From IMG/VR virus record IMGVR_UViG_3300033571_011832, positions 1 to 46,919 of that record: a stretch of 46,919 nt of DNA, one strand, 5' to 3'. Under the pieces are notes generated by a model, which worked only from the letters and a program-made list of their open reading frames with translations, made no database searches and was not told the origin of the DNA. The stretch's first letter is position 1. Each line of letters begins with the position of its first letter. Below are positions 2,596 to 27,639 of the stretch, one piece after another. Origin of the DNA: a virus. Made by a program: the position numbers and the translations under genes.

Positions 2596-2636
2596 TTTCT
2601 GCGTCTCCTATCGACGGCTTACTGGTGGTGTGGGCC

Positions 2637-4726: not shown

Positions 4727-4737
4727 TTCAACCTCGC

Positions 4738-5556: not shown

Positions 5557-5560
5557 TGTG

Positions 5561-9853: not shown

Positions 9854-9864
9854 CCGGCATTTTC

Positions 9865-9951
9865 CAAAATACAATAAGAGGGGGCTCAGTCGGGAGTTTT
9901 GAAGTTACACACCGTAACTTCAAAGTCGCGGCCATTAGGCTCTCTTATTGT
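9865..9951. repeat. Palindromic intergenic element, copy A
   Basis: The centre is a perfect 11-bp inverted repeat, TTTGAAGTTAC/GTAACTTCAAA, with a 5-base spacer (9898-9924). It is flanked by inverted copies of ACAATAAGAG (9871-9880) and CTCTTATTGT (9942-9951). Bases 9865-9885 match bases 15392-15412 exactly over 21 bp in inverted orientation. The element fills the gap upstream of the putative small terminase gene. It could be an operator, a packaging signal or a small mobile palindrome. Confidence 0.85.
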
Positions 9952-10727
9952 TCCAGCGCATCGTCCACACTCAAATACCCTGCCGTTGGAGAAAACTTCT
10001 CGTATCCGGCGAGTGTTAATATCGGCCTGACCCTATCAGCATAGCGTGATCGAGGCAACGCGCGACGGTGGCGGTCCATCATCACGAACTCGTCCTTCAC
10101 ATATTCGGTGCCGCAGTCGAGCCATTCGCGGAGAAGCGAGTGGCGAATTTCGAGGACTTCGCACACGTCCGTGCCGAACTCGTGCCCCGCGACGCGCATC
10201 CCGCGTAGCAGGTGCCTGACCCGTTCCGGCCCGAAGACATACGCCTCTCGCTGCGCTACCTGCCACTTCTTCGACGACCGGCGCAGACGCCAGTCGATCT
10301 CAAAATAGTCGGCGTCGGCGGGCGGCGGGCCGTGTAGCTCGTCGCACCTCTCGACGGGACCGAACTGGAACATGAACTTGTCGCTGTCGATTTCGGGGGT
10401 GTATCCACGGAACAGCTTTTCGAGGCCCACCGGCGAGGCTTCGAGGATACAGGATGCGCGGTGGAAGATGTCGCGCACAGTCGTGTGCGTCGGCACCGGG
10501 AAGCGCCACGCGACAGCCTTCTGCCCGAGGTCGGGCACAGAGCGCTTGAACAGTTTGTAGCCCTCGCCGTTCGCCACATACGCAGTGCAGCGAATGCGCT
10601 CCGGGTCGATCTCACCAGCGAGAAGATCGCGGCGCGCGCCTGGGTACTCTGTCAGAAAATTGATGTCTTTTTCTGACACCCAAGCGTGCCACTCAGCCCG
10701 CAAGTGGTCCTTCGTAATCGTATCCAT
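9945..10727 (-). CDS. Hypothetical protein, 260 residues
   Basis: This protein is not recognised. It is soluble, basic and rich in Arg, with a Trp-containing N-terminus (LRAEWHAWVSEKDINFL) and a C-terminal tract FVMMDRHRRALPRSRYADRVRP. There is no membrane segment or clear catalytic motif. The start overlaps the end of the next upstream gene by 35 bases, and the stop codon lies inside the right arm of the palindromic element. Codon usage matches the head genes. Confidence 0.7.
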   Translation of the reverse strand: MDTITKDHLRAEWHAWVSEKDINFLTEYPGARRDLLAGEIDPERIRCTAYVANGEGYKLFKRSVPDLGQKAVAWRFPVPTHTTVRDIFHRASCILEASPVGLEKLFRGYTPEIDSDKFMFQFGPVERCDELHGPPPADADYFEIDWRLRRSSKKWQVAQREAYVFGPERVRHLLRGMRVAGHEFGTDVCEVLEIRHSLLREWLDCGTEYVKDEFVMMDRHRRALPRSRYADRVRPILTLAGYEKFSPTAGYLSVDDALEQ

Positions 10728-11064: not shown

Positions 11065-11067
11065 GGC

Positions 11068-11439: not shown

Positions 11440-11448
11440 GTCTTTCTC

Positions 11449-12006: not shown

Positions 12007-12007
12007 T

Positions 12008-12265: not shown

Positions 12266-12266
12266 G

Positions 12267-12643: not shown

Positions 12644-12649
12644 CGGTTT

Positions 12650-13084: not shown

Positions 13085-13110
13085 AGCGGGACACTAGCTG
13101 TAGCGTGCCG

Positions 13111-13347
13111 CTATTTCAACTCGTCGATGACTTGCTGACCGCGAAGGCGAGCGATTTCGAGATCGCGCTCAGCGAGCTTCACCTTCAACTCACCGTGAGC
13201 AATACCGAGTTCGACGAACTCGCGTTTCAGTTCGCGAAGCTCGGTACGCGCGGCAACAAGCTGCTCGAAGATTTCGACGACGCGCGCCTGCTCGTGCAGC
13301 AACTCGTACTTGAGGTTCGTGAGTTGGGTTGGTTTACGCTTTGCCAT
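13111..13347 (-). CDS. Small coiled-coil protein, 78 residues
   Basis: Almost the whole protein from residue 10 on is a heptad-patterned helix (LLHEQARVVEIFEQLVAARTELRELKREF), which predicts a coiled-coil dimer or a partner-binding rod. The start follows the upstream stop by three bases with GGGGTAAG before it. No catalytic residues are visible. Function is unknown. Confidence 0.7.
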   Translation of the reverse strand: MAKRKPTQLTNLKYELLHEQARVVEIFEQLVAARTELRELKREFVELGIAHGELKVKLAERDLEIARLRGQQVIDELK

Positions 13348-13350
13348 GAC

Positions 13351-13698
13351 TTACCCCTGAAACTGGCCGAGGCTACGGCCTTCGTTAACGCTGATCTCGA
13401 CCCCTGCCGCTTCGCTGTCGTAGCGCTGCATCCAGATGGTCTCGCCGTCGTAGCGATAGCCGAACCACATCGACTGCGTAGCCATAGCGAGCAGCGACGC
13501 GATCTGGACGGGGCTCTCCAAGACGGGCAGGGCTTGGCCTGCGTCGTCAACGATGATGCCGTTCGCCCAAGCCGGAAGCTGAGCGCGCGTAACGAGACCG
13601 GGCGGCGGTGCCATGAAGCGAGCTACAGAGCGAGGCGTGAGATAGCACTCCTCGACCTTGCCGTCCTCGTTGCGCATGTGAACGATAAAGCTGCTCAT
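13351..13698 (-). CDS. Hypothetical protein, duplicated family, full-length copy
   Basis: This 115-residue protein starts MSSFIVHMRNEDGKVEECYLTPRSVARFMAPP. The next upstream gene (13700-13978) encodes a clear paralogue of its first 80 residues, and the DNA around both starts is nearly identical. The C-terminus (FGYRYDGETIWMQRYDSEAAGVEI) is present only here. The start overlaps a TGA in another frame as ATGA, a relic of the original junction with the gene at 13975-14193. Function is unknown. Confidence 0.75.
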   Translation of the reverse strand: MSSFIVHMRNEDGKVEECYLTPRSVARFMAPPPGLVTRAQLPAWANGIIVDDAGQALPVLESPVQIASLLAMATQSMWFGYRYDGETIWMQRYDSEAAGVEISVNEGRSLGQFQG

Positions 13699-14015
13699 TT
13701 TACTTTCTCCACTTGCTCATAGCGTTCGATGAAGATGTGCAGAACCACATCGGCTGCGTGGTCATCGCGAGCAGCGCGGCGATCTGGCCGGGGGCCTCCA
13801 AGACGGGCAGGGCTGTGCCGTATGGATCGACGACGATGGTCTTCGCCAACGCCGGGATTTGCCCAGCGGCGACGAGGTTCTTCGGCGGTGCCATAAAGCG
13901 CGCGACCGACTGCGGCGTGAGGAAGCAATCCTCTGGTGTGCCTTCGTCGTTCAACACGTGGACCATAAAGCTGCTCATTTTACTTTCTCCACTTTCTCAT
14001 AGCGCTCGATGAAGA
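13697..14015 (-). repeat. Local tandem duplication, unit about 279 bp
   Basis: Bases 13697-13732 match bases 13976-14011 with two mismatches. They carry the end of one gene (peptide IFIERYEKVEKVK) and the start of the next (MSSF). Between them the encoded proteins are homologous to the adjacent gene, so one unit was copied head to tail. The join near 13731-13733 truncates the upstream MSSF copy. Confidence 0.85.
13700..13978 (-). CDS. Truncated paralogue of the adjacent gene, 92 residues
   Basis: Residues 1-78 (MSSFMVHVLNDEGTPEDCFLTPQSVARFMAPPKNL) parallel the downstream 115-residue protein. Homology stops at PMWF, where the duplication join enters a copy of a neighbouring gene in another frame. 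The last 14 residues (CTSSSNAMSKWRK) are therefore junk sequence. The ATG overlaps the upstream TGA (ATGA). The protein may be partly functional or a decaying duplicate; the paralogues have diverged clearly in sequence, so the event is not recent. Confidence 0.7.
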   Translation of the reverse strand: MSSFMVHVLNDEGTPEDCFLTPQSVARFMAPPKNLVAAGQIPALAKTIVVDPYGTALPVLEAPGQIAALLAMTTQPMWFCTSSSNAMSKWRK

Positions 14016-14193
14016 TGTGGCGCTGCACGTACCGTATCTTCGTCGCGTAGAAGCGTTCTTCAACACCGTTCTCGTCGCACGCGACAACCGCGTACTCTTT
14101 GTCGCTCACCAAGATCACCTTGACGAACTCGACAACCCACTCTTTGCATGGAGAGAGGCGACGATAGACATCGCCAACTTGTGTGCCGTTCAT
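13975..14193 (-). CDS. Small hypothetical protein, 72 residues
   Basis: The sequence MNGTQVGDVYRRLSPCKEWVVEFVKVILVSDKEYAVVACDENGVEERFY suggests a small beta barrel (alternating strands and charged turns). The C-terminal peptide HIFIERYEKVEKVK is repeated in a different frame at 13697-13735 as part of the local duplication. AAAGAGAGA precedes the ATG, and the stop is coupled to the next start. Function is unknown. Confidence 0.7.
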   Translation of the reverse strand: MNGTQVGDVYRRLSPCKEWVVEFVKVILVSDKEYAVVACDENGVEERFYATKIRYVQRHIFIERYEKVEKVK

Positions 14194-14351
14194 CGCGTTC
14201 TCTCTTTCTCTATCCGGGGCGACGGGGTTTCGGCCCGCCGCCAGCCTTTTCCGCAGTGCGCAGCGCGGGCAGGCTTTTCAATCCGTGAGGCGAGACCCTG
14301 CCATAGCTACGCGCGGCGCGCAACTGTGGCGGGATGTCACATACCGCTCGA
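14194..14351. other. Short spacer without a convincing gene
   Basis: A 25-codon minus-strand frame starts at an ATGA overlap with the upstream gene (ATG near 14355) and ends near 14278. It has no supporting features. The rest of this spacer shows no strong hairpin or repeat. Confidence 0.4.
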
Positions 14352-14552
14352 TCATTCGACGCCGCCTTTACCCGTGCGGGGCCGCGACCAGTAGCAACCG
14401 TGCCCGATGTTCGTTCCCCGCATAAAGCGCGGCGGGTAGAACCGAATTTCCCTACGCGGTGCCTCGGGTATCTTCTTCACCTCGACGGGTGGCTTCGGTG
14501 TCTTCTGTGTCTCCACGAGTTCGACCCTAGCAGCGTGGGCAGGGGTGTCCAT
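14352..14552 (-). CDS. Small Pro/Arg-rich hypothetical protein, 66 residues
   Basis: The product starts MDTPAHAARVELVETQKTPKPPVEVKKIPEAPRRE and is basic and Pro-rich, so probably extended. GAGG precedes the ATG and the gene follows a well-supported small gene after six bases. The composition could also arise by chance in GC-rich DNA, so confidence is moderate. Confidence 0.5.
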   Translation of the reverse strand: MDTPAHAARVELVETQKTPKPPVEVKKIPEAPRREIRFYPPRFMRGTNIGHGCYWSRPRTGKGGVE

Positions 14553-14558
14553 GCGACA

Positions 14559-14738
14559 TCACGCCTCATACTCGGGCACGCACCGCGCCGACATGAAAAC
14601 CGCGCCACGCAGGGGAGGCGGTCGAAGGTTCAGGTCACGAGCTACAGCTTCGCACGCCCTGCCGCTCTGGAACTCCTGCCGTATCTCCCTCGGGCCTTCG
14701 GCTGTCATCAGCCAGACGATCACGATCCACACATTCAT
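14559..14738 (-). CDS. Small membrane-associated protein, 59 residues
   Basis: The frame is open from 14813, but AAGGAG lies just before ATG at 14738, and the upstream part overlaps a large inverted repeat. The chosen product starts MNVWIVIVWLMTAEGPREI: a hydrophobic N-terminal segment that could be an anchor or signal, then a charged domain with two Cys residues (GRACEAV, SARCVPE). Secreted or inner-membrane topologies are both possible. No family is recognised. Confidence 0.65.
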   Translation of the reverse strand: MNVWIVIVWLMTAEGPREIRQEFQSGRACEAVARDLNLRPPPLRGAVFMSARCVPEYEA

Positions 14739-14811
14739 GGCCGATCTCCTTCGAGAGCCACGTTGGCGCGGTTTTTCGGGACTTACAACGGGCTGAGTGT
14801 CGCAGGGGTGC

Positions 14812-14879
14812 AAAAACGACCTCTATACGAGGCACGAGACCCGAAATGCGGTGATTTGACCCGTATAAGAGGCGTTTTT
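14812..14879. terminator. Large imperfect inverted repeat, likely bidirectional terminator
   Basis: The left arm 14812-14829 (AAAAACGACCTCTATACG) and right arm 14862-14879 (CGTATAAGAGGCGTTTTT) pair over 17 positions with two single-base bulges. Each arm ends in a run that becomes five Us on the exiting strand. The loop of 32 bases is longer than usual, which lowers confidence. It would end minus-strand transcripts from the island before the 14738 gene. Confidence 0.6.
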
Positions 14880-15259
14880 CGTGGTTCGGGCCTTGGGTTT
14901 CTGGGATTTTTTCTGTGCGATTTTAGAAAACGCAGTCCTCGCTCCTAGATACCTAGGCGGAGACCCACACGGCAAAATTAACCACGCCGCAAAAACCACC
15001 GGCGGCCCATGGTTAACAAGTAAAGGCAAGTAATCCCGAGACACAATACATGAGACACATTGCCACACATCTTGTGTTTCGTGTTTCGTGTCTTGGGGTG
15101 TGCTGCACCTATACTTGAGACACGAGACAAGGGGCGCGGAATACTAGGGGCAGGGCTTGGGATGGCGTGCATCGGGGTTTGGGTCTCGGGTTTCGTGTAT
15201 AGAGAGCGTCTATGGATGAGGGGTGGACCTATAGACGGGGGCAGGGGGAGCGACAAATT

Positions 15260-15412
15260 ACAATAAGGGGGCGGGGAAATTCTGATTTTGAAGTTACGCT
15301 GTGTAACTTAACCATGTGCGCGCGTGCCCCTTTTAAGGGAAAAGCTCAATAACCATAAGTTACACACTGTAACTTCAAACTCGCGCCGTCTGCCCCCTCT
15401 TATTGTATTTTG
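15260..15412. repeat. Palindromic intergenic element, copies B and C
   Basis: Two AAGTTAC-N5-GTAACTT palindromes (15288-15310 and 15356-15379) lie head to head. They are flanked by ACAATAAGGGGG (15260-15271) and the inverted CCCCCTCTTATTGT (15393-15406). The right end matches element A at 9865-9885 exactly over 21 bp in inverted orientation. A further small palindrome (CCCTTTTAAGGG) lies in the middle. Confidence 0.85.
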
Positions 15413-15419
15413 TCACGGC

Positions 15420-15647
15420 TCACCCTGCCCCCAGGATAGCGGCGGGGTGCATCAATGCCCCTGCCCCTATCAGCGCCCCTGCTACCACGCACCCCAAGGC
15501 ACAAAGCCCGAGACACGAAACAAGAGCCAATAGGGCAAGCGCCCCGCGCCCCGCCCTAGCTATGCGCCGCGCATATAGCGAAACGACTAGAACCGCCCCA
15601 GCGGCAAAGCCAAACGCCGCAAGGGTCAGCAATTCGGGGGCGCTCAT
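15420..15647 (-). CDS. Small membrane protein, 75 residues
   Basis: Two hydrophobic segments, about residues 5-26 (ELLTLAAFGFAAGAVLVVSLYA) and 36-68 (ALALLALVSCLGLCALGCVV), are separated by an Arg-rich loop (RRIARAGRG). This predicts two membrane helices with a cytoplasmic loop. The ATG overlaps the upstream stop. Two helices and under 80 residues would fit a holin-like or exclusion protein, but nothing specific is seen. It is the last gene of the island before the palindromic element. Confidence 0.65.
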   Translation of the reverse strand: MSAPELLTLAAFGFAAGAVLVVSLYARRIARAGRGALALLALVSCLGLCALGCVVAGALIGAGALMHPAAILGAG

Positions 15648-15895
15648 GTTAGCCCCTTCAATTCGGATTTCAGGACACGCTTCAATTCAGCTTTCAGCGC
15701 TCGCGCCGCATCGCCCCGGAATGTTGCGGCATTGGACAGGAAATAGAGCACAATCTTGCGCGCGCTATCCGCGCCATAAGCATCGTGTATCGTGTCCAGG
15801 GATTGCATGGCGTCCAGATAGGGAACCGCGCCAAAGTAAGGCTTGGGCCATGCCTTGCGGATGTCCGCTGCGATTGCGTGAATGGGTCTAGGCAT
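15644..15895 (-). CDS. Conserved small phage/plasmid protein, 83 residues
   Basis: The product MPRPIHAIAADIRKAW, with PYLDAMQSLDTIHDAYGADSA and VLYFLSNAATFRGDAAR, matches a widespread small family found in phages and conjugative plasmids, function unknown. It is helical and basic at the C-terminus. I chose ATG at 15895, which has GGAG upstream and overlaps the previous stop as TAATG; an in-frame TTG at 15904 is less likely. Confidence 0.8.
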   Translation of the reverse strand: MPRPIHAIAADIRKAWPKPYFGAVPYLDAMQSLDTIHDAYGADSARKIVLYFLSNAATFRGDAARALKAELKRVLKSELKGLT

Positions 15896-16038
15896 TATCT
15901 CCAATCCTTTGCGAAGCCTAGGGCTAGGCCGCCAGTTATCAGGGCCATAAGCACGGCCCCAGAGAAGCCCGCCCCGATGAAGCCCATAACCCCAAAGAAG
16001 GCGCTAACGCCAAACACGACCTTAAGACCTAGAGACAT
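15895..16038 (-). CDS. Small Gly-rich membrane protein, 47 residues
   Basis: ATG at 16038 to TAA at 15895 encodes a protein that is almost all hydrophobic: MSLGLKVVFGVSAFFGVMGF, then a Gly-rich helix (GAGFSGAVLMALITGGLALG) and FAKDWR. Two close membrane helices or one glycine-zipper hairpin are likely. Start and stop both overlap neighbours, which supports it as a translated gene despite its size. Function is unknown. Confidence 0.65.
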   Translation of the reverse strand: MSLGLKVVFGVSAFFGVMGFIGAGFSGAVLMALITGGLALGFAKDWR

Positions 16039-16220
16039 TGGCCGATGCCTTCCATGTGCCAGCGCCTATTCATGCGCTTACGTTGAGCGTCGACGCTGGC
16101 GCATGCCAGCCAAGCCCTGCGGGCGGGGGAGCCGCGCGGGTTGAGGCGAGCGAGCGAAAGGCTCAATTCCTGCGATTGCGCGGCGCGCGACGCGGCGCGG
16201 GACCAATAAAACGCATCCAT
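16029..16220 (-). CDS. Small basic protein, 63 residues
   Basis: The product starts MDAFYWSRAASRAAQSQELSL and is Arg-rich (RLNPRGSPARRAWLACASVD). GAGGAG lies well placed before the ATG, which overlaps the upstream stop as TAATG. The basic, helical character would suit nucleic-acid binding, but no family is recognised. Confidence 0.65.
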   Translation of the reverse strand: MDAFYWSRAASRAAQSQELSLSLARLNPRGSPARRAWLACASVDAQRKRMNRRWHMEGIGQCL

Positions 16221-16390
16221 TAGGGAAGCTCCTCTATAGGCGTCACAACGAAGTCAGGGCCATACTCTTGCGACCAATCGGACGCCGCGCCCCATGTCTC
16301 GAATTGTTGCGCGTCGGGGTATTCAGTAGAGGCGCGGCCATGCTTGAATGTGGCGTATTCGCCTGTTTGTGAATTAAAGACCACGAACAT
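16220..16390 (-). CDS. Small acidic hypothetical protein, 56 residues
   Basis: ATG at 16390 to TAA at 16220 encodes MFVVFNSQTGEYATFKHGRA, ending DFVVTPIEELP. The beta-hairpin start and compact size suggest a small folded domain. The stop overlaps the next start. It belongs to the tightly packed run of tiny genes in the island, and its function is unknown. Confidence 0.65.
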   Translation of the reverse strand: MFVVFNSQTGEYATFKHGRASTEYPDAQQFETWGAASDWSQEYGPDFVVTPIEELP

Positions 16391-16392
16391 GA

Positions 16393-16569
16393 TTAGCGCA
16401 CCTTCCTACCAAAAGTGAACGCGCGGTCATTGTTGCTCGCGCCTTGGAATTTCGCGGCTTGCGTTTCGCCCGTCCAATCGGCGCGGGCCTCCGCTTCGCT
16501 GACTTGATACGCGCCGCGCTCAAGGAGCTTAGCGAGGCGTTCGGCTTGTGAGGTTGATTGACGTTGCAT
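16393..16569 (-). CDS. Small hypothetical protein, 58 residues
   Basis: ATG at 16569 to TAA at 16393 encodes MQRQSTSQAERLAKLLERGA, continuing YQVSEAEARADWTGETQAA. A helical first half is followed by a basic end (FGRKVR). No family is recognised. The gene is spaced two bases from the next start, like its neighbours. Confidence 0.6.
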   Translation of the reverse strand: MQRQSTSQAERLAKLLERGAYQVSEAEARADWTGETQAAKFQGASNNDRAFTFGRKVR

Positions 16570-16625
16570 GGCGTTATTTCCTTTCTTGATGTAGCGACAC
16601 TAGCGCGAAGGGATTAACAAACCCT

Positions 16626-17009
16626 TTAACGCTGGAAGCTTTCAGCGATTTTTTCAGCGCCGACTAGAAGCGGCTCTAGATCAATCGTGTAATCGCTAAT
16701 CACGTCCGCGTCGTTCCCATAGATCAGGAGAACCCACCCCAGCTTTTTCTTGTCCCTGCCAATATCTCGAAGCACGAAAAGCCGTTCCATATCCGTTGTG
16801 GACATTGCGGCGAATATTTCCGAAGCGTCGCGGCTATAGCCGGTAACGTCTTCCTCGCCATCGTTCACCATGATAGCCGCGCCGCTGGCGAGCACGTCAG
16901 AGACAAGCCGCACGATGATTTGGCGCTCAATCTCGTTTCTGTGGTTGATAAACGGGCGCGGCCCAATGCGTGAGCCGTGCGGCGATGGTTGCGCTTTATC
17001 CAGGCTCAT
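16626..17009 (-). CDS. Conserved phage/plasmid protein, 127 residues
   Basis: The core (PFINHRNEIERQIIVRLVSDVL, IMVNDGEEDVTGYSRDASEIFAAM, GWVLLIYGNDADVISDYTIDLE) resembles a small alpha/beta family of unknown function carried by many phages and plasmids. I chose ATG at 17009, which overlaps the upstream stop as ATGA, over an upstream in-frame start at 17063 lying in the previous gene. The alternating hydrophobic strands suggest a compact enzyme-like or binding fold without an obvious active site. Confidence 0.75.
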   Translation of the reverse strand: MSLDKAQPSPHGSRIGPRPFINHRNEIERQIIVRLVSDVLASGAAIMVNDGEEDVTGYSRDASEIFAAMSTTDMERLFVLRDIGRDKKKLGWVLLIYGNDADVISDYTIDLEPLLVGAEKIAESFQR

Positions 17010-17116
17010 ACTGACACCGGGGCAAACGCGATTAGGAAAAGGGTCAGCCATGCGCCAAACCACAACGCGCCTTGTTCGCGTGGGGTCAGTTTGCGGCGGG
17101 GTGTAGCGTAGCGCAT
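17006..17116 (-). CDS. Very small membrane protein, 36 residues
   Basis: ATG at 17116 is preceded by AGAAAGGA. The product has a basic start (MRYATPRRKLTPREQ) and a single hydrophobic helix (LWFGAWLTLFLIAFAPVSV) running to the C-terminus. The stop overlaps the next start (ATGA), so it is probably co-translated with it. It is a typical single-span phage micropeptide of unknown role. Confidence 0.65.
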   Translation of the reverse strand: MRYATPRRKLTPREQGALWFGAWLTLFLIAFAPVSV

Positions 17117-17179
17117 GGCTTTTCCTTTCTAATGCTCGCGATTATGCACATTTAGCGCGCCGCGTATAATCACGAATTA

Positions 17180-17368
17180 TTACAACGCCAGCACAAGCGC
17201 CGCGATAATGCCGACAATCGGAACCCAAGGCACAAGGCACAAGATACCCCACACAAGCGCCCAGCACATGCGCAGCGTGTAGCCGCACACATACGCCCAC
17301 GCCAGCACGTAGCGCCACGCATCGCCCTTGCGGTTATCCTGAAACGCGGCGCGGTTTTCTTGTGTCAT
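17180..17368 (-). CDS. Small membrane protein, 62 residues
   Basis: After a polar, basic start (MTQENRAAFQDNRKGDAWRY) two hydrophobic segments follow: VLAWAYVCGYTLRMCWALVW and GILCLVPWVPIVGIIAALVL. This gives a cytoplasmic N-terminus with two helices. The ATG overlaps the end of the DUF7227 gene. Function is unknown. Confidence 0.7.
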   Translation of the reverse strand: MTQENRAAFQDNRKGDAWRYVLAWAYVCGYTLRMCWALVWGILCLVPWVPIVGIIAALVLAL

Positions 17369-18204
17369 GCTGCACCCTTTAGCGTCGCTTGCGCTGCGTT
17401 GTATGCCGCGCGGCCTAATTCGAGCGCCGCGCCTTCCGTCAATATCATGCCGCTAGATTGCGGCGTGTGTTTCCTAAGCGAGCCTTTGGGAAGCAGCAGG
17501 CCGACGCTATAGGCAGGGTCTAGAAACCGCACATCATGCGCGCTAGCGTCATGGAAGCGCACACGCGCCTTATCGCCTAGCGCCATTAGCGCCGCGTGCG
17601 TTTCGGGCATGACTACCGCCGCAACATTCCAGCCGCTTGCGAGCGCTTCGAGCGCCGTTGTGTGCGTCTCATGTTGCGCGCTAAACGTAAGCGCATAATT
17701 CGCGGGGAGGTGCGCGGCGCGCTTTGCTGGCGTGTGCTTTGTGTAATCATAGAATTGCACTAGCGGCAATTCATTGATTATAGACGTTGCGCGCGCCGCA
17801 GTGACGGCGCATGGGATGCGTTCCCATACGATGTCAGACGTTCCATTTAGCCGCACGGCTAGGCGCATGGCGTGGCGCTTGGCGACAATGCGCAAGCCTT
17901 CAATTTCGTTCACAAGCTGCGCCATGAATAAATCACGCTCTTGAAAGAAGCGCCGCGTCCGCGCAATGCGTGCGTCTTTCGTGCGTTGCATCGCGCCGCG
18001 CCCGCTTGTGAATAAGCAATCGCGTCGGCAATCGGCGCTCGAAGCGGCGCACACATTCCAGCCGCTTAGCTCATGCGGCGCTAGATACATGATCGCAGTC
18101 AGCACGCCTAGGCTTTCGCCTTTGATCGTTTTTGCGTTGTGGACGCCTAGCAAATCGCCGCGCCGCGTTCGATAGCCTGTTAGCGTGTCCCTGCCTTCTG
18201 ACAT
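17365..18204 (-). CDS. DUF7227-family phage protein
   Basis: This 279-residue protein matches a phage family of unknown function: HNAKTIKGESLGVLTAIMYL, then HELSGWNVCAASSADCRRDC, LFTSGRG, VRLNGTSDIVWE, VQFYDYTKH and ANYALTFS. Three conserved Cys residues could bind a metal or an iron-sulphur cluster, and the C-terminal half has a barrel-like pattern. I chose ATG at 18204; the longer frame from 18261 would run through the stem of the terminator upstream. It begins a new transcription unit after rIIB. Confidence 0.85.
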   Translation of the reverse strand: MSEGRDTLTGYRTRRGDLLGVHNAKTIKGESLGVLTAIMYLAPHELSGWNVCAASSADCRRDCLFTSGRGAMQRTKDARIARTRRFFQERDLFMAQLVNEIEGLRIVAKRHAMRLAVRLNGTSDIVWERIPCAVTAARATSIINELPLVQFYDYTKHTPAKRAAHLPANYALTFSAQHETHTTALEALASGWNVAAVVMPETHAALMALGDKARVRFHDASAHDVRFLDPAYSVGLLLPKGSLRKHTPQSSGMILTEGAALELGRAAYNAAQATLKGAA

Positions 18205-18234
18205 GTTGTGACAATCCCCCGAAACACGAAACAC

Positions 18235-18286
18235 AAAAAGCGGGGCGCGTGCTGATAGCACCTAAGCAATCCACGCACGCGCCCCG
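18235..18286 (-). terminator. Rho-independent terminator after rIIB
   Basis: On the minus strand CGGGGCGCGTGC pairs perfectly over 12 bp with GCACGCGCCCCG across a 22-base loop and is followed by CTTTTT. It lies between the rIIB stop (18340) and the DUF7227 start (18204), so the DUF7227 gene should have its own promoter or rely on read-through. Confidence 0.8.
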
Positions 18287-18339
18287 TAAGTTTGCGCAGC
18301 GTCGCGCGCCATGCAACGCGCCGCGCCTCTCAGGGTGCG

Positions 18340-19197
18340 CTATGCGCGCCCCGTCAAGTCAGTTTCGCCAGCGTCGGCGGCTAGAGCACGCGCGACAAAG
18401 GCGCTTTGCAATCTAACCTTGCCTTCGCTCTTATAGTCGATGGGAAGGCTTGCGATATGTTCCGGCCAGACGTGCAATTCAATCACGGTTCGCCCACCGC
18501 TTCCATTTTTCCAATAGTCGTTTACTTGCGAGAGGGGGCAAGCGTGAATGCCAGCGGCGCAAGTCTGATTTTCATCGCGGCAAACATCGCCCCATGACAT
18601 TTCGACTTGCTGCCCTAGCACGTAGCGGAACTTTGCGTCATGTAGCGCCACATATTCGCCGGGCTTGTCCGTCGCCATGACCGCTTTAACGAGCACAATG
18701 CGCCCGTCTTCCAGGCGCGGAACATGCCAGCGGTCTAGGAAGTCTTCAAAGCTTTCAATGACGCGGGGGTCATCGTGGCGCATGAGGCTTTCGAGCGTCC
18801 GCAATTCGCTTTCGATTGGGAAGCCTTCGCGCATTAGCTCCACAATGCGGCGCGCGCTGGCGTTATTGATCGGGCGATTTTTGAACGTGACAACGCCAGC
18901 GGCGGACACGTTGACAAAGCCGCTCGAAGCGCCCGCGCTGGCGATTGCGCGCGCTGGCGACGCAAGCCGCTTTACCTCAGCCCAATTTTTCTCACGCAAC
19001 GCGGCGGCCAGGAACGTCGTTTTCTCTACCGTGTGCGCGCGGCCTTCGAAAAACACAGTCACAGTCTTAGGGCCGACGTTATACGCTAGCGGCTTTTCAG
19101 GCGCGGGCGCGGGCTTGGCGACGCGGGGCGCTTTCGCCTTCGCGGTTTTCTTTTTCGGCGCGGGCTTTTTCGGCGCGGCCTTCTTTTTCGTGGTCAT
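18340..19197 (-). CDS. rIIB: rIIB-like protein
   Basis: This 285-residue protein has a Lys/Ala/Pro-rich N-terminal tail (MTTKKKAAPKKPAPKKK). Its C-terminal half carries the rIIB pattern: DGRIVLVKAVMATDKPGEYVALHDA, then GQQVEMSWGDV and TCAAGIHACPLSQVNDYW. In T4 the rIIA and rIIB proteins are membrane-associated, act together early in infection and are needed to escape exclusion by lambda Rex; their biochemistry is unresolved. The stop of rIIA overlaps the rIIB start. Length is close to T4 rIIB (about 310 residues). Confidence 0.85.
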   Translation of the reverse strand: MTTKKKAAPKKPAPKKKTAKAKAPRVAKPAPAPEKPLAYNVGPKTVTVFFEGRAHTVEKTTFLAAALREKNWAEVKRLASPARAIASAGASSGFVNVSAAGVVTFKNRPINNASARRIVELMREGFPIESELRTLESLMRHDDPRVIESFEDFLDRWHVPRLEDGRIVLVKAVMATDKPGEYVALHDAKFRYVLGQQVEMSWGDVCRDENQTCAAGIHACPLSQVNDYWKNGSGGRTVIELHVWPEHIASLPIDYKSEGKVRLQSAFVARALAADAGETDLTGRA

Positions 19198-21302
19198 GGC
19201 TTTGCATTCCTTACAATGAGAGCCGCGCGGAAAAACTCAGTCAGCAAGCCCCGCCGCGCGAATTGTTCGGAGCTTGAAAGTATGTGCGCGAACACGGGGC
19301 GCGCGGCTAGATAAGCCTTGCATTCCGCTTCGATGTCCAGGGGCAAGGCGTCATTAAACGCCGCGTCATATCGCGCCTCTAGCTCAGGTGTCAGCACGCC
19401 AGCGGCGCGCACCTCTTGCAACGCCTTCAAGTCATCCGCGCTAATCCGCGCTTGCGGCTTGTGCGATTGAAGGCGCGTTTTCAGATCGCCAAACACAGGG
19501 CAGGCGGGGCGATATTTCAGCAAGAGCGCGAATAGCTCGCGGACCTCATACCATGCCCCTTCCTCTTCGATACGTGACCACACAACGGAGCGTAGGAACG
19601 TGCTAGAGCGTATGAGCCGCGCGGCGCGCTCTTGCGCCTCGCTTTCAGCGTTGCGCCATAAGGCAGGGTCTAGCTGCTTTGTGAGGTGTCGCGGCATCCC
19701 CAGCAACGGCGCACCCCTGAACCACGAAACGCGAGACAAGGAAGGCGCGCGGGGATTGACGGGATTAGAGCCGCTAAACGGGATATACACCCCGCCGCGC
19801 TCTAGCTGCACCTCTACCAATCCCCAGCGCGTGCTAGTGCGTCCGCTATATTTGACGCTCGAATAGGCGCGGGCTTTTCCTTTCAGATACCCCGCACCCT
19901 TCGCGGCTTTCAGCGGCTTAGGCGGCTCGAAGTCAGACGCTAGCAGATAGGCGCTAGGTGGCATTTCGAGCGCTTCAATAAATGCCGCGTCAACAAACGC
20001 GACGCGATGCGCGCGGCTCATGTGCTGAACGCTCGCAGCGTGGCGGCTCGCAAGGTGTGCGCGCTCTAAGAGCTTCTTAGGCTTGCCCGGCTCTAGGTCA
20101 TCTAGGACCCAAACCCAGCAAGGCGGCTCTTGTCGGCGGTTTACATCCGGCTTCCATTCCATGAAATCTTTAGTGAGCGGGCGCGGGCTTTTGTAGCGCT
20201 CTAGATCGCCACGGCTCCACGCAATCGAGGCGCTAGGCGTTTTAATTCCGTCAATGTATGCGCCGCGCTCCGCATTTTGCCACGCCACACGCTTAGGCAG
20301 GAAGCGCGATGCGTCGCCCGCTTCATAATGGGCGCGCGCGAATAGCTGCATAGCTTCCCATTGCGTTGGCGCGGTTTGAATGTGAGCCGTAAACTCGGCG
20401 CGGAAGTCATCAAGCGCGCTTTCTAGTGCGGCTTTCACTGCGTCGCGCGTGCGGTCATCTAACAGCAACGCTTCGCGGTTTGGCGTCACTGATAGCGCGC
20501 CGATGGGAAAGCGCAATTCCATGCCGGTTGACGGCGCGCCTAGCTCTTGCCATGCGTCGCCATAGATCGCCTCTAGGTCCAGGCGATAGGCGATGCACCC
20601 CATGCGCGCATAGGTCGGCGCGCTCGATTGCTTCAACACGGCGTAGCTATCTGCTTCGCGCACGTATTCAGGCGGGGCAACATCCGCGCCGATTAGCTCG
20701 AAACTATCAGCGGGGAATAGCTGCAAAATGCGCGACGCGATGTCTCGAAACTCGCGCCAATCTTTCTCAGGAATAGGAATGCGAATTTCCGTCCCTGTGC
20801 ATTGTTCCGCGCCTTCGAGCGGTTCAATCATAGCCGCGTCAGTTTGCGGGCGCGGCGTGCCGTCCTTGCGGTCAATCACATAAGTCTGTTTGTGGTCGCC
20901 GCGATAGATCACAAGCGAGAATTGTTCTGTTACGCAAAAGGGGGTTTTCATGCCAAGGCCGAAACCGCCGATTGCGTCGTCGTCGTGGTCCTTAGTGCTA
21001 TCGCCTAGGGACATTGCGCGATGCATGACAAACTTGTGTGTCATGCCGCGCCCCCAATCGCGCACAACTAATTCCGGCTGCATCGCATGGGGCAGGCAAA
21101 CAAGAAACGGGCGCGAAGCGTGGCGCATTTCGTCGAATGCGTTGGCGCAAATTTCGCGGAACATGCTTTCACGCGGGCGGCTATAGAAGCCGCTTGTCAG
21201 CATGTAGAATATTTTCGCGTTATTCTTCGCGGCGATTGACGGGGTGGAGCTTTCGCCAAACCCCTCCCCCTCAAAGTCATTTTCTGATATGTGCAGGCGC
21301 AT
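19194..21302 (-). CDS. rIIA: rIIA-like GHKL ATPase
   Basis: This 702-residue protein has a GHKL-type ATP-binding domain: FREICANAFDEM (Glu50, Asn54, Asp57, the N box), VVRDWGRGM (Asp82, Gly84, Gly86, the G1 box) and GGFGLGMKTPF (residues 112-122, the G2 box). This and its length fit T4 rIIA (about 725 residues). The remainder has no motif I recognise. It overlaps rIIB by four bases, so the pair is co-translated. The gene is dense in CTAG tetranucleotides, unlike the head and replication genes. Confidence 0.88.
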   Translation of the reverse strand: MRLHISENDFEGEGFGESSTPSIAAKNNAKIFYMLTSGFYSRPRESMFREICANAFDEMRHASRPFLVCLPHAMQPELVVRDWGRGMTHKFVMHRAMSLGDSTKDHDDDAIGGFGLGMKTPFCVTEQFSLVIYRGDHKQTYVIDRKDGTPRPQTDAAMIEPLEGAEQCTGTEIRIPIPEKDWREFRDIASRILQLFPADSFELIGADVAPPEYVREADSYAVLKQSSAPTYARMGCIAYRLDLEAIYGDAWQELGAPSTGMELRFPIGALSVTPNREALLLDDRTRDAVKAALESALDDFRAEFTAHIQTAPTQWEAMQLFARAHYEAGDASRFLPKRVAWQNAERGAYIDGIKTPSASIAWSRGDLERYKSPRPLTKDFMEWKPDVNRRQEPPCWVWVLDDLEPGKPKKLLERAHLASRHAASVQHMSRAHRVAFVDAAFIEALEMPPSAYLLASDFEPPKPLKAAKGAGYLKGKARAYSSVKYSGRTSTRWGLVEVQLERGGVYIPFSGSNPVNPRAPSLSRVSWFRGAPLLGMPRHLTKQLDPALWRNAESEAQERAARLIRSSTFLRSVVWSRIEEEGAWYEVRELFALLLKYRPACPVFGDLKTRLQSHKPQARISADDLKALQEVRAAGVLTPELEARYDAAFNDALPLDIEAECKAYLAARPVFAHILSSSEQFARRGLLTEFFRAALIVRNAKP

Positions 21303-21332
21303 GGCTTTTTTGCTTTCTGCTAGGCGTGGCGG

Positions 21333-21638
21333 TTAGGCGTCGGCGGCTTCCTTCGCGCGCTTCGAGACGCTGAATGTGGCGTATTGCGTCAACGTCTTAA
21401 ACGGCGCAAGCGCAGCGGCAATCTTGGGGTCAGCCTTCGCGGCTTTCATGTCCAGCCCTTCGCGCTCAACATCGCGGCGCGTGATAGGGCGCATGTCAGA
21501 CGTATAGAACACATCGCGCCCGTCAGCTAGGAACACATCGCGCGACGCTTCCTTGATTTTCTCGGCGGCCTTTATTGCTGCGTCGGCGCTCGCGTAAGCG
21601 TCGGCGGCTTGTGTGAGGTGTGCGGCTTGTTTCGGCAT
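21333..21638 (-). CDS. Hypothetical Ala/Lys-rich protein, 101 residues
   Basis: I chose ATG at 21638, which has GGAAGG upstream; the longer frame from 21773 has an unlikely Cys/Arg/Pro-rich extension. The product is a helical, Ala-rich protein (LTQAADAYASADAAIKAAEKIKEASRDVF) with a short beta segment (DGRDVFYTSDMRPITRRDVE). It is the first gene of the rII transcription unit, downstream of the iteron-bearing region. Function is unknown. Confidence 0.7.
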   Translation of the reverse strand: MPKQAAHLTQAADAYASADAAIKAAEKIKEASRDVFLADGRDVFYTSDMRPITRRDVEREGLDMKAAKADPKIAAALAPFKTLTQYATFSVSKRAKEAADA

Positions 21639-21762
21639 TCCCTGCCCCTTCCGTGTGTGAGACGCGCACAATCGCGCGGCATGGGGGAAGGGTACGCAAG
21701 GCGCGCGCCGCTTGCATATGTGGCAGGGTGACACACCCCGCCGCGCCAACATTACAAAATGT

Positions 21763-21804
21763 TTAGGTGACAATCGCGGCGGCCTTCTTTAGTGTCGTGG
21801 TCAT
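21763..21804 (-). other. Thirteen-codon leader-like ORF resembling the rIIB start
   Basis: ATG at 21804 to TAA at 21763 encodes MTTTLKKAAAIVT. The DNA resembles the first codons of rIIB (ATGACCACGA, then AAGAAGGCCG). It may be a duplicated remnant of that gene start or a leader peptide upstream of the 21638 gene. Confidence 0.4.
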
Positions 21805-21865
21805 GGAAGCCAAGGCGCATACCGCAGGCGGGAGCCGCGACGCGACAGGCGGATGAGAGACGGAT

Positions 21866-21966
21866 CAAAACGGGACACCATAGGAGAGCGATGCAAGAGC
21901 GAGGCCAGTTAACCAGAGCCAAAACGGGACAGTTAATGAAGACGGTTAACAAGAGGTAAGGTTAAC
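21866..21966. repeat. Direct repeats CAAAACGGGACA and GTTAAC cluster
   Basis: CAAAACGGGACA occurs at 21866-21877 and 21920-21931, 54 bp apart. GTTAAC occurs three times within 60 bp. The words lie upstream of the rII transcription unit and could be binding sites for one regulator. Confidence 0.6.
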
Positions 21967-21999
21967 GCCGCCCACCGCCGCCGCGCCGCCCCGGCCCCC

Positions 22000-22100
22000 T
22001 AAATTCGCTCCCGTTGTTATAAAATTCCGCCTCGTTCTTATAAATTCCGGCCCGTACTTATAAATTCCGGCGCGTTCGTCCAAATTTGCGCCGCTTTCAG
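22000..22100. repeat. Five tandem 20-bp iterons
   Basis: Units begin at 22000, 22020, 22041, 22061 and 22081. The consensus is TAAATTCCGGCNCGTTCTTA with an A/T-rich join (TTATAAATT). The last two units are more diverged. There are no spacers, so this is not a CRISPR array. Arrays of this size and period typically bind a replication initiator or a regulator. Confidence 0.8.
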
Positions 22101-22481: not shown

Positions 22482-22567
22482 ATTGCAAATTCCCCATTGC
22501 ATTGCAAACTCGCCGGGGGGGGTATTGCAAACCCGCCAGCACCCCTTATTGCAAACTCGCCGGCCCG
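22482..22567. repeat. Four ATTGCAAA iterons
   Basis: ATTGCAAA begins at 22482, 22501, 22524 and 22548. In three units it is followed by CTCGCCGG or CCCGCCAG. Spacings are 19, 23 and 24 bp. The last copy overlaps the end of the neighbouring gene, and a CCCCTTATTG word there recalls the ends of elements A and C. Confidence 0.75.
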
Positions 22568-24462: not shown

Positions 24463-24761
24463 TAGCCGTTCGCTGCGACCTGCGCAGCGGTCGGCGCACC
24501 GACGAAGCGCATCTGTGTCGGGATCAGCGTCGTGAAGTCGTCGGACGCCGAATAGAGCACCGTGTTGAGGTCGATGCCGTGCTTGATCGCCTGATCTTGC
24601 CAGAACAGACGCATGTCCTGCGCGACGGCGGCGGCACGCTGCTCGTACTGAGCTTGGAAGTCAGCCGTCATCTTTTGCAGCGCGTTCTCACGCGCCACCA
24701 GCGCCGCCAGCTTCGCTTGATCCGCCTTCTCCAACGGGATCGCTTGGGGTAGGTTCGTCAT
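24462..24761 (-). CDS. Hypothetical helical protein, 99 residues
   Basis: The product MTNLPQAIPLEKADQAKLAALVARENALQKMTADFQAQYEQRAAAVAQDM is a long helix with coiled-coil character, then a short domain (DLNTVLYSASDDFTTLIPTQ). GAGGAG precedes the ATG. It overlaps the 3' end of the polymerase gene by 74 bases, so it is translated from the same message. It is not recognised. Confidence 0.7.
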   Translation of the reverse strand: MTNLPQAIPLEKADQAKLAALVARENALQKMTADFQAQYEQRAAAVAQDMRLFWQDQAIKHGIDLNTVLYSASDDFTTLIPTQMRFVGAPTAAQVAANG

Positions 24762-27639
24762 TCTCTTTCTCCTCTAAGAAGTCGCTCACTTCGACAACTC
24801 TATCGACCATGAGCCAACGTCCGCTGTCGTTTATACACGTTCCGCGCACGAGGAACAGCTTACCTTCGCTGTCTTGGTCATGCCAAATCGTCGCACCCAT
24901 GTCCGCGTACTTAAAGCGGTTCACCGTGCAGCCGATCTCGCCGGTGCCGTCGTCGAGGATCATGTTGAGGAAGTGCTGCGGGCCAGCGTTCTTGCCACCG
25001 CCGCGCTTTGCCACGCGCTCGGGATCGTTGCTGTCGCGCAGCGTCTTCTTCTTCAACACGCCGCAGATCAGATACGAACCCCTGCCTACGGGCACCTCGC
25101 AGATGCGATGGGCAGGGCCGGTCACGCCAGCGGGTGTGTTCTTCGTCTTGAAGTCGTCGGGGCTGTCGTAGAGCGGGCGCAGCTTGCGTTGCAGGCGGCC
25201 CACGTCCGCCCACGCCCAATTCTCCGGGTCTTCGATCTTCTTCAACACGCCGGGGCCGATCTTGGCCTTCCACGACGGGCCGGTCTCGTCACGCAGCGCG
25301 ACGATCTTCTCGGCGGTCTTGAGGCCGATGCCCTTCACGTTCAGGAAGCCGCCGATCAGCGCCCCGTCTTCGATGCGCCAGTTGACGCCGCTGCGCTCCG
25401 CGTCGAACGGGATGATCGTCACGTCATCCCTTTCTAGCTCTTGCAGCAGCGCCTTCGAGCCTTCTTCGTCCTTCGCGTTCAGTAGTTGCGCGTGGCCGTA
25501 TTCAAGCGGGAAGTGCGCCTTCAAGTAAGCGGTGATGTAGCTCACCATCGAGTAGGCGACGGCGTGCGAGAAGTTGAAGGCGTAGCTGCCGCTTTCCTCC
25601 ATCTGGTGCCACAGGGACTTGGCGATTTTCTCGCCAACCTTGACCCCTGCGTTTTTCAAAAATTGGTCTTCAAATTTTTTCAATTCCTCGGGCAATTTCT
25701 TTCCTATTGCGCGGCGGAATTTGTTCGTGTCTTCGATGGAGAAGTCCGCGATGTAGCGGACGATGTTCATCATCTGCTCCTGATAGATCACGGTGCCGTA
25801 GGTGTCGCCAAGGTACGGCTCTAGCAGCGGGTGCTCGAAGGACATTTCCTCGTCGCCGCGCCGACGCTTCACCCAATTACCTGCGGCACCACCTTCCAGC
25901 GGGCCAGGGCGAGCGAGAGAGGTGAGGGCGCAGAGATCGGAGAACCGATCAACGGTGATCTGGCGCGTGAGGCCGCGCACCGTGCTGCCTTCAAACTGGA
26001 ACACACCAGTAAGAAGGTCGCGGCGGAAAAGATCGAACGTCTCGTCGTTGTCGAGAGGCAGTTTGTAAAGCTGTTGGACATCAAGCCCGGCCTCTTTGCA
26101 GCAGTCCTCGATCACGCTGAGCGTGCGCAGGCCCAGCGCGTCCATCTTCAACGCGCCGATTTCCTCAGCGTCCTTCAACGTGAGCGCGGCGACGCTTTCC
26201 TCGTCCACCGAGGCGTAGCGCGTGATGTCGTCGGCGGTGACGACGATGCCTGCGGCGTGGACACCATGGTGGCGTGGCTGGCCTTCGAGAAGCGCGGCCT
26301 TCTTGAAGTTGGGGAATTGCTCGACGACCATAGCGATTGCTTTGTCTTCGAACGCTTCCTCAAGCGTCATGTCTTCTCCCATGAGACGCGCCACCAGCCG
26401 AGAGGTTTCGAATGGGACTTTGAGGGCGCGGGCGGTGTCGTTTAGGGCCGACTTGCCCGCGAGTTCAGCAACCGTACCGATCTTAGCGACGCGAGCGGCA
26501 CCATAGGTCGCAATAAGGTGGGTAAGAATCTCTCCCCGCGATCTGTCGGGGAAGTCAACGTCAATGTCGGGCCAGTCATTCCGCGTGATGTCGATAAACC
26601 GCTCGAACAGCGTTCCATGCACGATTGGATCGACCTCAGTAATTCCGAGGAGATAGCAGACGAGACTGCCTCCCGAACTGCCGCGACCTGGGCCGACGAA
26701 CATTCGTTGCTTGGCCCATCCAACAAGCTCTCCGACGAATAGGAAATAATCTGCGAAGTTTTTAGCTCGGATGACTTCAAGTTCGGCGTCCAGCCGCTCT
26801 CGGTACACGCCGGTTCCGACGTTGATTTCTCGGGTGGCGGCTCCGTCAATGCAAAGCTGATGGAGTTTTGTCTGCGCATCTTCGAATGTAATGTTGCGGG
26901 CTTTGGGAACGCGGACGGTTGCTGCCCCAGCAGCCACATATCCTTCGGCAACATCGAAAGCTCGTCCAATAATGTCGTCCGAAACTTTGAATTGGGCGAG
27001 GCCATGTCGATACTCTTTCTCCGACATCATGTGATGCACCGGCAGATCAATGTCACCGATGCGCTGCATGTTCGACGTGGCGCGGACCATATCATAGCCG
27101 TCGCGGTGTTCGATGCGGGGGAATGACGCACCCAACGCAGCGATGGGCGTGCAGTCGCCGCTCTTAATCATACCGATCATGTGGCCGGGCGCGGGGCGCA
27201 GCGCCACCGGGTAGCCCTGTGCAGCGGGGATGTCGCGCGTCTCAATGCGGACGTGCTCTACGATCACGCCGATGCCGCGCGTCTTAAGCTCGCGCACTTG
27301 GTTCCACGTCAGCCGTGGCCGGTAGAACATCTGCGACTTGGCCCTGCCCATCGCCTTGTAGATTTCCTGCAAGCCATCCTGATTGATGGCGACCAGGGTG
27401 ACGAGATCGTGGCGGGGGTCTTTGTCGAGTTGAAGCACGACGGGCAGGGTGATGCCGAACACAGGGAGGATGTCGGCCTTCAAGCATTCCTTCTGGAACT
27501 GGATGTGACCCCAAGTGGAGCAGTAGTCCGCGAGACCCAAGACACGAAGCCCGAGTTCCGAGGCACGCTTCACGATCTGCTTCGGCGTGCCATACGCACG
27601 CAGGAAGCTGTAGCTAGAGCGAGTGTTTAGGTGGATCAT
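24688..27639 (-). CDS. dnaE: DNA polymerase III alpha subunit (DnaE-type)
   Basis: This 983-residue family C polymerase has an N-terminal PHP domain (HLNTRSSYSFLRAYGT and GLADYCSTWGH). The palm carries GPGRGSSGGS (residues 316-325), PDIDVDF (Asp360, Asp362) and KMDALGLRTL (Asp500), so the catalytic triad is complete. A helix-hairpin-helix (NVKGIGLKTAEKI) and an OB-like region (ICGVLKKKT to NDSGRWLMVDRVVEV) follow. It is shorter than E. coli DnaE (about 1,160). The first PHP motif reads HLN where HxH is usual, so PHP nuclease activity is doubtful; a separate DnaQ-type exonuclease is encoded nearby. No clamp gene is seen. Confidence 0.95.
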   Translation of the reverse strand: MIHLNTRSSYSFLRAYGTPKQIVKRASELGLRVLGLADYCSTWGHIQFQKECLKADILPVFGITLPVVLQLDKDPRHDLVTLVAINQDGLQEIYKAMGRAKSQMFYRPRLTWNQVRELKTRGIGVIVEHVRIETRDIPAAQGYPVALRPAPGHMIGMIKSGDCTPIAALGASFPRIEHRDGYDMVRATSNMQRIGDIDLPVHHMMSEKEYRHGLAQFKVSDDIIGRAFDVAEGYVAAGAATVRVPKARNITFEDAQTKLHQLCIDGAATREINVGTGVYRERLDAELEVIRAKNFADYFLFVGELVGWAKQRMFVGPGRGSSGGSLVCYLLGITEVDPIVHGTLFERFIDITRNDWPDIDVDFPDRSRGEILTHLIATYGAARVAKIGTVAELAGKSALNDTARALKVPFETSRLVARLMGEDMTLEEAFEDKAIAMVVEQFPNFKKAALLEGQPRHHGVHAAGIVVTADDITRYASVDEESVAALTLKDAEEIGALKMDALGLRTLSVIEDCCKEAGLDVQQLYKLPLDNDETFDLFRRDLLTGVFQFEGSTVRGLTRQITVDRFSDLCALTSLARPGPLEGGAAGNWVKRRRGDEEMSFEHPLLEPYLGDTYGTVIYQEQMMNIVRYIADFSIEDTNKFRRAIGKKLPEELKKFEDQFLKNAGVKVGEKIAKSLWHQMEESGSYAFNFSHAVAYSMVSYITAYLKAHFPLEYGHAQLLNAKDEEGSKALLQELERDDVTIIPFDAERSGVNWRIEDGALIGGFLNVKGIGLKTAEKIVALRDETGPSWKAKIGPGVLKKIEDPENWAWADVGRLQRKLRPLYDSPDDFKTKNTPAGVTGPAHRICEVPVGRGSYLICGVLKKKTLRDSNDPERVAKRGGGKNAGPQHFLNMILDDGTGEIGCTVNRFKYADMGATIWHDQDSEGKLFLVRGTCINDSGRWLMVDRVVEVSDFLEEKENDEPTPSDPVGEGGSSEAGGAGGA

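Follow-up and report, generated by a model that had tools for sequence, protein, structure and literature searches.

A CTAG-rich, GTAC-free operon with rII-type and GP88 genes in a tailed phage, possibly imported as a block

Tailed phages are modular mosaics in which blocks of functionally linked genes are exchanged between lineages, the joints lying in non-coding DNA. The RIIA and RIIB proteins of T4 protect from prophage-encoded exclusion, the RIIA family has a GHKL-type ATPase domain, and in T4-like and alphaproteobacterial phages (Seuss, Roseobacter phage DSS3P8) rIIA is followed by rIIB on the same strand. We have analysed a stretch of DNA, referred to as the window, which comprises all 46,919 bases of the single virus record IMGVR_UViG_3300033571_011832 (class linear) and which is a tailed phage with all recognised genes on the minus strand. 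Positions 14820-21640 form a CTAG-rich island that likewise carries an RIIA-like gene followed by an RIIB-like gene on one strand, together with a gene of the GP88 family. The island resembles the described modules in being a block of linked genes with non-coding joints, but exchange is here read from composition and gene distribution, and although the contrast with the surroundings is strong, CTAG being tenfold to nineteenfold denser than in the flanks, blocks so deviant are not rare. On balance we favour, as the best single explanation, that the island came in as a block and is a phage module of the early type.

The RIIA proteins of Seuss and DSS3P8 are 30-34% identical to that of the window in their N-terminal halves, but their rII surroundings are CTAG-poor, and in Seuss unshifted, whereas those of the window are CTAG-rich. 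The combination of a CTAG peak and a GTAC trough seen here recurs near GP88 or an rII cassette in five other contigs (labelled G099, G117, G113, G121 and G089) and one further locus (L207), and the GTAC trough alone in G090, but the neighbouring genes in those six GP88 neighbourhoods differ from those of the window.

Exact counting gives 5 CTAG sites in positions 1-14819, 43 in 14820-21640 and 16 in 21641-46919, close to the roughly 4, 45 and 15 that had been counted by eye in an initial annotation of the sequence. This corresponds to 6.30 sites per kb in the island versus 0.34 in the left and 0.63 in the right flank, where base composition predicts about 3.6, the same value as the annotation had given for this GC content. 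The density is far from uniform, since 43 of the 64 sites fall within 14.5% of the sequence (binomial p 1.6e-21), and any 6821-bp segment lying wholly in a flank holds at most 9 sites when moved in steps of 100 bases. Furthermore, when synonymous codons are shuffled, ten island genes are found to hold 36 CTAG sites versus 23.4 ± 3.3 expected, a number reached in none of 300 shuffles, while 16 flank genes hold 12 versus 23.3 ± 4.2 (2 of 300 shuffles as low). The island is therefore enriched in CTAG and not merely undepleted, so that the annotated contrast between depleted flanks and an island without depletion is correct but was understated.

The profiling of tetranucleotides and codon usage that the annotation had proposed reveals that the switch goes beyond CTAG, as the full tetranucleotide signature and the codon usage both change while the GC content is equal (0.59) in island and flanks. 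Observed-to-expected ratios are 0 in the island versus 0.69 in the flanks for GTAC, 0.10 versus 0.60-0.76 for ACTC, 0.36 versus 1.5-2.0 for GATC, 0.21 versus about 0.65 for CCGG and 4.0 versus 1.9-2.0 for GCGC, and the GTAC-free stretch runs for 7.6 kb from 14092 to 21692, the next longest in the window being 1.7 kb. In codon usage, leucine is encoded by CTA in 30% of cases in the island versus 7% in the flanks and tyrosine by TAT in 72% versus 33%, and the GC content at third codon positions is 0.65 versus 0.76. The tetranucleotide profiles of the two flanks correlate at 0.93, from which we conclude that they belong to one genome, whereas the island correlates with the left flank at 0.36. In a held-out test the two halves of the island scored +192 and +203 for the island model and the four tested flank blocks -575 to -650. 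The best-scoring deviating segment is 14890-22032, borders included, and the non-coding borders themselves (14.75-15.42 and 21.64-22.55 kb) bear a poor likeness to either side. The small genes adjoining the island keep the flank signature (0.88 at 9.9-14.75 kb and 0.80 at 22.55-24.7 kb), which shows that gene size alone is not the cause of the island. A uniform deviating signature thus spans about 6.2 kb, a feature that is not specific to transfer.

Site avoidance persists when the encoded proteins are held constant, codon shuffling of the island genes giving 0 GTAC versus 7.7 expected, 9 CCGG versus 22 and 15 GGCC versus 38, while the flanks hold 59 GTAC versus 77, 125 CCGG versus 149 and 124 GGCC versus 162; the non-palindromic ACTC is likewise avoided in the island after shuffling. 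Since the island avoids GTAC, CCGG and GGCC more strongly than the flanks do, relaxed selection does not give such a pattern. Palindromic tetranucleotides such as GATC are under-represented in phages according to PMC6286503, which uses whole-genome values, whereas the avoidance of GTAC, CCGG and GGCC here peaks in one region and is accompanied by that of ACTC. No published account of such a regional pattern of site avoidance, CTAG or early-gene composition was found among titles and the beginnings of abstracts.

The core of the island is a packed operon read leftward, composed as follows, where open reading frames (ORFs) of less than 100 residues were listed by a script demanding an ATG and a Shine-Dalgarno-like sequence:

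15420..21638, minus strand: the operon as a whole, with overlapping or closely spaced ORFs
21333..21638, minus strand: first operon gene, 101 residues from its ATG; read at its longer 146 residues, it weakly matches a RecE-like exonuclease in PHROG (E 0.0044)
19194..21302, minus strand: RIIA-like protein, 702 residues; phrog_612 at E 1.5e-70 over residues 1-345 (N-terminal half)
18340..19197, minus strand: RIIB-like protein, 285 residues; phrog_609 in its C-terminal part at E 2.6e-26, also phrog_11221 and others
17365..18261, minus strand: GP88 family protein, 298 residues; PF17338 at 120.8 bits versus a cut-off of 24.4
17180-17368 and 17006-17116, minus strand: two further small ORFs
16626..17063, minus strand: phrog_4158-like protein, function not assigned, 145 residues as longest ORF; E 9.8e-15
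15420..16569, minus strand: run of six small ORFs of 47-83 residues (15420-15647, 15644-15895, 15895-16038, 16029-16220, 16220-16390 and 16393-16569)

The order of the operon is accordingly the 101-residue protein, RIIA, RIIB, GP88, two small ORFs, the phrog_4158 protein and six small ORFs, and the profile matches bear out the annotation of rII-type genes in the island. RIIB follows directly upon RIIA, its start overlapping the RIIA stop by 4 nt. Judged against the Pfam and NCBIfam cut-offs, the GHKL-type ATPase signals of the RIIA-like protein fall short, HATPase_c_3 scoring 21.7 bits (cut-off 25) and P_loop_sacsin 29.3 (cut-off 50), and the RIIA profile leaves the C-terminal half unmatched. 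A promoter scan of 14-23 kb found none, where 3.6 would be expected.

The grouping of RIIA, RIIB and GP88 is a known neighbourhood. The three genes are found close together on one strand in the order of the window in L247, in the order GP88-RIIA-RIIB in L185, L189, L201, L204, L205 and L245, and with GP88 a few kb downstream of rII on the same strand in Seuss and in the records of L180 and L181, which are the closest RIIA relatives among the matches listed. Among the matches listed, the best relatives of RIIA, Caulobacter phage Seuss included, are 34-36% identical to it; RIIB is about 29% identical to its relatives and GP88 up to 47%. Single-protein scans of IMG/VR found no relatives of RIIA or of the phrog_4158 protein, two of the polymerase described below at 34-35%, and 327 of GP88, the best 80 of which are 34-46% identical. 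The annotation had described the gene families of the island as common on phages and plasmids; the first half of this holds, whereas GP88, the only island gene covered by our plasmid protein search, has matches in 1 of 72,556 plasmid records. The annotation did not mention that the window is itself a phage.

The flanks carry the following marker genes:

5975-7642, minus strand: portal, marker of the left flank
7642-9261, minus strand: terminase large subunit, marker of the left flank
24688..27639, minus strand: DnaE-type (DNA polymerase III alpha) polymerase, marker of the right flank, which defines the recipient lineage

The right flank also carries a helicase, a primase-like protein and a tail protein, and a match to a TOTE-type archaeo-eukaryotic primase domain (PF22548, E 1e-9) was observed in the primase-like gene at 32060-33763. 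Elsewhere in the window, a 280-bp unit is duplicated in tandem at 13462-14019 (77% alike), spanning two small genes in succession whose upstream sequences are nearly alike, and the ORF at 3713-4726 contains a 75-bp tandem array of 3.6 copies at 4171-4438.

The distribution of these genes was surveyed by profile scans of IMG/VR, in which the polymerase and RIIA have at least 80 matches each and the analysis rests on 80 each; the records examined were 46 for 80 GP88 loci fetched, 36 for 82 polymerase loci, 41 for 80 RIIA loci and, for the polymerase test, 37 for 80 RIIA loci plus two named phages. GP88 is present in 17 of the 41 rII-bearing records, and rII, searched for with one profile, in 2 of the 46 GP88-bearing records but in none of the 36 records with a polymerase of the window's type, which are 32-41% identical and partly fragments. 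Conversely, the phrog_405 polymerase occurs in 2 of 39 rII-bearing records, of which one is a fragment. Records combining rII with a polymerase of this type are therefore uncommon in the sample, a point in favour of import.

Import is thus favoured because the whole signature and the codon usage switch, because the adjoining small genes are flank-like and because rII was not found in the sampled polymerase relatives. According to this explanation the operon, consisting of a small gene, RIIA, RIIB, GP88, the phrog_4158 protein and further small genes, would have entered the lineage as one block from a donor phage with another DNA signature, probably through a non-homologous recombination whose two joints lie in non-coding DNA, and too recently for the signature to have ameliorated. 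The event would exemplify the turnover of early modules among phages, and RIIA and RIIB may, as in T4, serve in host take-over or counter-defence, to which GP88 may add a putative radical-SAM reaction. A single transfer event, its direction, early expression and the function of the operon are all things we infer, the transfer from composition and gene distribution.

Several observations weigh against import. The polymerase relatives are, among the matches listed, only 32-41% identical to the window's polymerase and differ from the window in many genes, so that the absence of rII from them says little about timing, and no close relative of the window was found. No donor was found: 50,697 phage and 72,556 plasmid records show no usable similarity at the DNA level, and not one of 254 loci of at least 4 kb has a whole-length signature correlating above 0.58 with the island. 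No relative with an empty site was found either. No integrase was recognised among the scanned proteins and no border repeat exceeds shuffled sequence. The borders are marked by repeats lying in gene-free stretches on both sides, as the annotation had stated, and by a palindromic element:

9865..9955, no strand assigned: third palindromic copy B, intergenic in the left flank; shares 21 identical nt with A', inverted
14829..15529, no strand assigned: dispersed CACGAGACACGAAACA-type repeats at the left border, with related copies at 17221, 18220, 19713 and 22225
15252..15414, no strand assigned: inverted pair of palindromic elements A and A' with 59-nt arms, at the left edge of the operon
22001..22081, no strand assigned: four tandem 20-bp AAATTCCG-type repeats in the right non-coding border

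The three copies of the palindromic element in the window have the form ACAATAAG..GGGGGC..TTTGAAGTTAC-N5-GTAACTT, and folding 15240-15426 as single-stranded DNA gives a z-score of -7.0. That the element is common to the flank and the island edge fits long residence as well as import. An Rfam search gave no matches. The element has none in viral contigs, and as a family marker it was rejected, the sole genome-contig match being judged a chance one (a coding ORF of an Ignavibacteriae contig of 35% GC that shares nothing else with the window). To the right of the island, at 22500-22564, three TATTGCAAACYCGCCGG-type copies lie near AAATTCR repeats in non-coding DNA, possibly an origin or a regulatory region.

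The same borders bear on two further explanations. The record is a linear metagenomic one whose junctions are not confirmed by any close relative, and a piece of another virus might have been joined into the contig during assembly. Such a chimera is quite improbable, since it needs two independent false joins within one genome, since the only exact repeat of at least 21 nt outside two internal arrays is inverted (9865/15392) and none of at least 16 nt joins both island borders, and since the palindromic element ties flank and island edge together. More improbable still is a mobile element or satellite inserting by its own machinery, although the uniform block, the palindromic and repeated DNA at its edges and two direct copies of 20 nt at 14828 and 22230 that are 85% alike might suggest one, since the scanned proteins include no recognisable transposase, integrase or replication gene (five ORFs of the smallest class were not scanned). 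Candidate attachment sites or terminal repeats score at best 30 when direct and 26 when inverted, where 100 shuffles reach up to 35, and neither of the hallmarks of a mobile element, a recombinase gene and terminal or attachment repeats, is thus found.

A different explanation arises from comparison with other phages and holds that the island is an old resident, early regions evolving under a regime of their own in expression timing, codon preference and site avoidance, of which this would be a strong case. Its evidence at the same time counts against import. Deviance was measured as the distance of a 6.2-kb segment from the rest of its own genome, without the island as reference, and a segment was called most deviant if matched only by segments overlapping it. 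By this measure 13 of 17 named phages have their most deviant segment around GP88, the exceptions being Sansa, CRP-143, XacN1 and CM1, and the leading end is the most deviant in all five T7-like phages without GP88 (T7, LUZ19, SP6, HTVC019P and phiKMV). The island itself reaches 0.60, the best segment of the window being 0.63; at least 0.60 is reached at GP88 in 7 of the 17 named phages, and 5 of 12 other long contigs hold a segment of at least 0.63, with GP88 inside it in G113 and G121 and outside it in G119, G117 and G089. Blocks of odd DNA dialect are hence a common feature of phages, often in the early region, and the present island is a strong but not a unique one. There is no single signature common to all such segments, a possibility we rejected as those of G119, G117, G089, G083 and G084 correlate with the island at 0.09-0.22.

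GP88-centred segments are more island-like than other segments of their own genomes, even when GP88, CTAG, GTAC and GATC are removed (Fisher 7.5e-8 for 29 records, 2e-4 for the 15 with a GC content of at least 0.5; island correlation alone 4.5e-6, or 0.002 with Markov correction), and 12 of the 17 named phages reach p ≤0.06; these p-values are rough, as the null segments overlap, and the window's own shift is inflated by the island being its own reference. Among the IMG/VR GP88 loci the island correlation alone is higher at GP88 in 31 of 60 (p 0.45), and in 52 of 60 when the flank correlation is subtracted. The leading ends (bases 501-6500) of T7, LUZ19, SP6 and phiKMV likewise shift towards the island and that of HTVC019P does not, only T7 and SP6 reaching 0.04 by island correlation alone. 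In addition, codon-shuffled tetranucleotide vectors place the island closer to the GP88 islands of seven other records than to the rests of those records (7 of 7). Atypical composition confined to part of the genes of large DNA viruses, in some cases tied to what they do or how they are expressed, is described in PMC2211322, though there the genes are from viruses above 150 kb and here the matter is one contiguous operon in a 47-kb record.

As early or GP88 regions are the most deviant in many unrelated phages, foreign-looking composition is weaker evidence of transfer than the annotation assumed when it took the module to come from another lineage; that claim stands on the switch of signature and codon usage and on the lack of rII in the sampled polymerase relatives, and suffers from the missing donor, the missing empty site and the deviance of early regions in general. 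The survey has lowered our confidence in import and raised that in a regime of early regions, which we regard as a strong rival though not as our first choice. Against it speak the four exceptions and Seuss, the closest named RIIA relative among the matches listed, whose GP88 and RIIA regions are unshifted. Strong deviation among the named phages is confined to genomes that are AT-rich or of medium GC content (0.32-0.47), whereas the five named GP88 phages with a GC content above 0.5 reach 0.06-0.29, and the T7-like leading ends, island-ward in four of five, reach 0.22-0.34 and are devoid of a GTAC gap, T7 having 23 of 168 GTAC sites in this 15% of its genome. The small genes touching the island have the flank signature, the likeness of 7 in 7 rests on island bounds chosen on CTAG peaks and on records that may be mutually related, and the early status of the operon in this phage is itself inferred. 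CTAG sites in bases 501-6500, 15% of the stretch read, number 13 of 60 in T7, 10 of 25 in LUZ19, 19 of 78 in SP6, 17 of 112 in HTVC019P and 10 of 27 in phiKMV, and are thus raised in all but HTVC019P.

Counts of CTAG and GTAC elsewhere are similarly divided. Of 61 loci, 41 show a higher CTAG level within 3 kb of GP88 than elsewhere (p 5e-5), polymerase regions are neutral (higher in 35 of 61), and RIIA-centred regions shift the opposite way (0.40 versus 0.53 in the surroundings; higher in 22 of 71 loci), by which RIIA was ruled out as the carrier of the signature. In 12 long contigs GP88 is among the top 12% of segments for CTAG in 7 and outside a CTAG peak in 5 (G083, G090, G087, G119 and G031). 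CTAG at GP88 is above the median in 10 of the 17 named phages (not significant) and not above it in 7, while GTAC is below it in 14 (p 0.013), so that support is mixed for regarding low GTAC as typical of GP88 neighbourhoods, the depletion being present in these but not around the 61 IMG/VR loci (p 0.87). By codon shuffling, 6 of 9 island sets, that of the window among them, hold less than half of the GTAC expected, but G113, L215 and L197 do not; a GATC test in the named phages was left unused, as some genomes are without any GATC. Import and a regime of early regions may both act. More generally, we put forward with considerable doubt that DNA dialect divides phage genomes into compartments, the early region following rules of its own that are partly common to the early regions of unrelated phages and differ from those of their late genes; the GTAC-free, CTAG-rich island with its other codon preferences would be a striking instance of this, for example if early DNA is the first to meet host restriction or an unmodified translation apparatus.

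We take GP88 to be an early gene, as 6 of the 17 named genomes carry it in their first 2.6 kb (HTVC134P, HTVC120P, CRP-143, Lo5R7ANS, HMO-2011 and HTVC035P), four of which are Autographiviridae, although the record of HMO-2011 is circular and position says little there; XacN1 carries the gene twice. A literature search found no functional description of GP88. The 46 sequences compared share three invariant cysteines, Cys 71, 78 and 82 of the window protein, spaced CX6CX3C and located after the first strand of the predicted model, where the canonical radical SAM iron-sulphur motif is CX3CX2C, a pattern that GP88 does not match. The model, built from the 46 sequences, has a predicted local distance difference test score (pLDDT) of 86, and in a structural search the first 15 of 50 rows, which we take to be radical SAM enzymes, have Z 4.5-6.1, all below the value of 8 from which such scores are trusted; PFL activase is at the top (Z 6.1, root-mean-square deviation 4.5, 163 aligned), followed by a viperin-like protein (5.7) and QueE (5.5). 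Foldseek gave a best E of 0.03 with a first row that is not a radical SAM protein. The radical SAM superfamily is typified by a (beta/alpha) partial barrel. GP88 looks radical-SAM-like in its predicted fold, short of membership in that family.

If transfer is true, the island would show in a clean natural case how an rII operon, with GP88 in it, passes as a block from one phage lineage to another. If on the other hand early regions deviate as a rule, calls of horizontal gene transfer in phages that are based on signature would need correction for the timing of genes, and regional site avoidance would be a testable trace of restriction at DNA entry. GP88, which occurs in very different phages, gains a testable chemical hypothesis.

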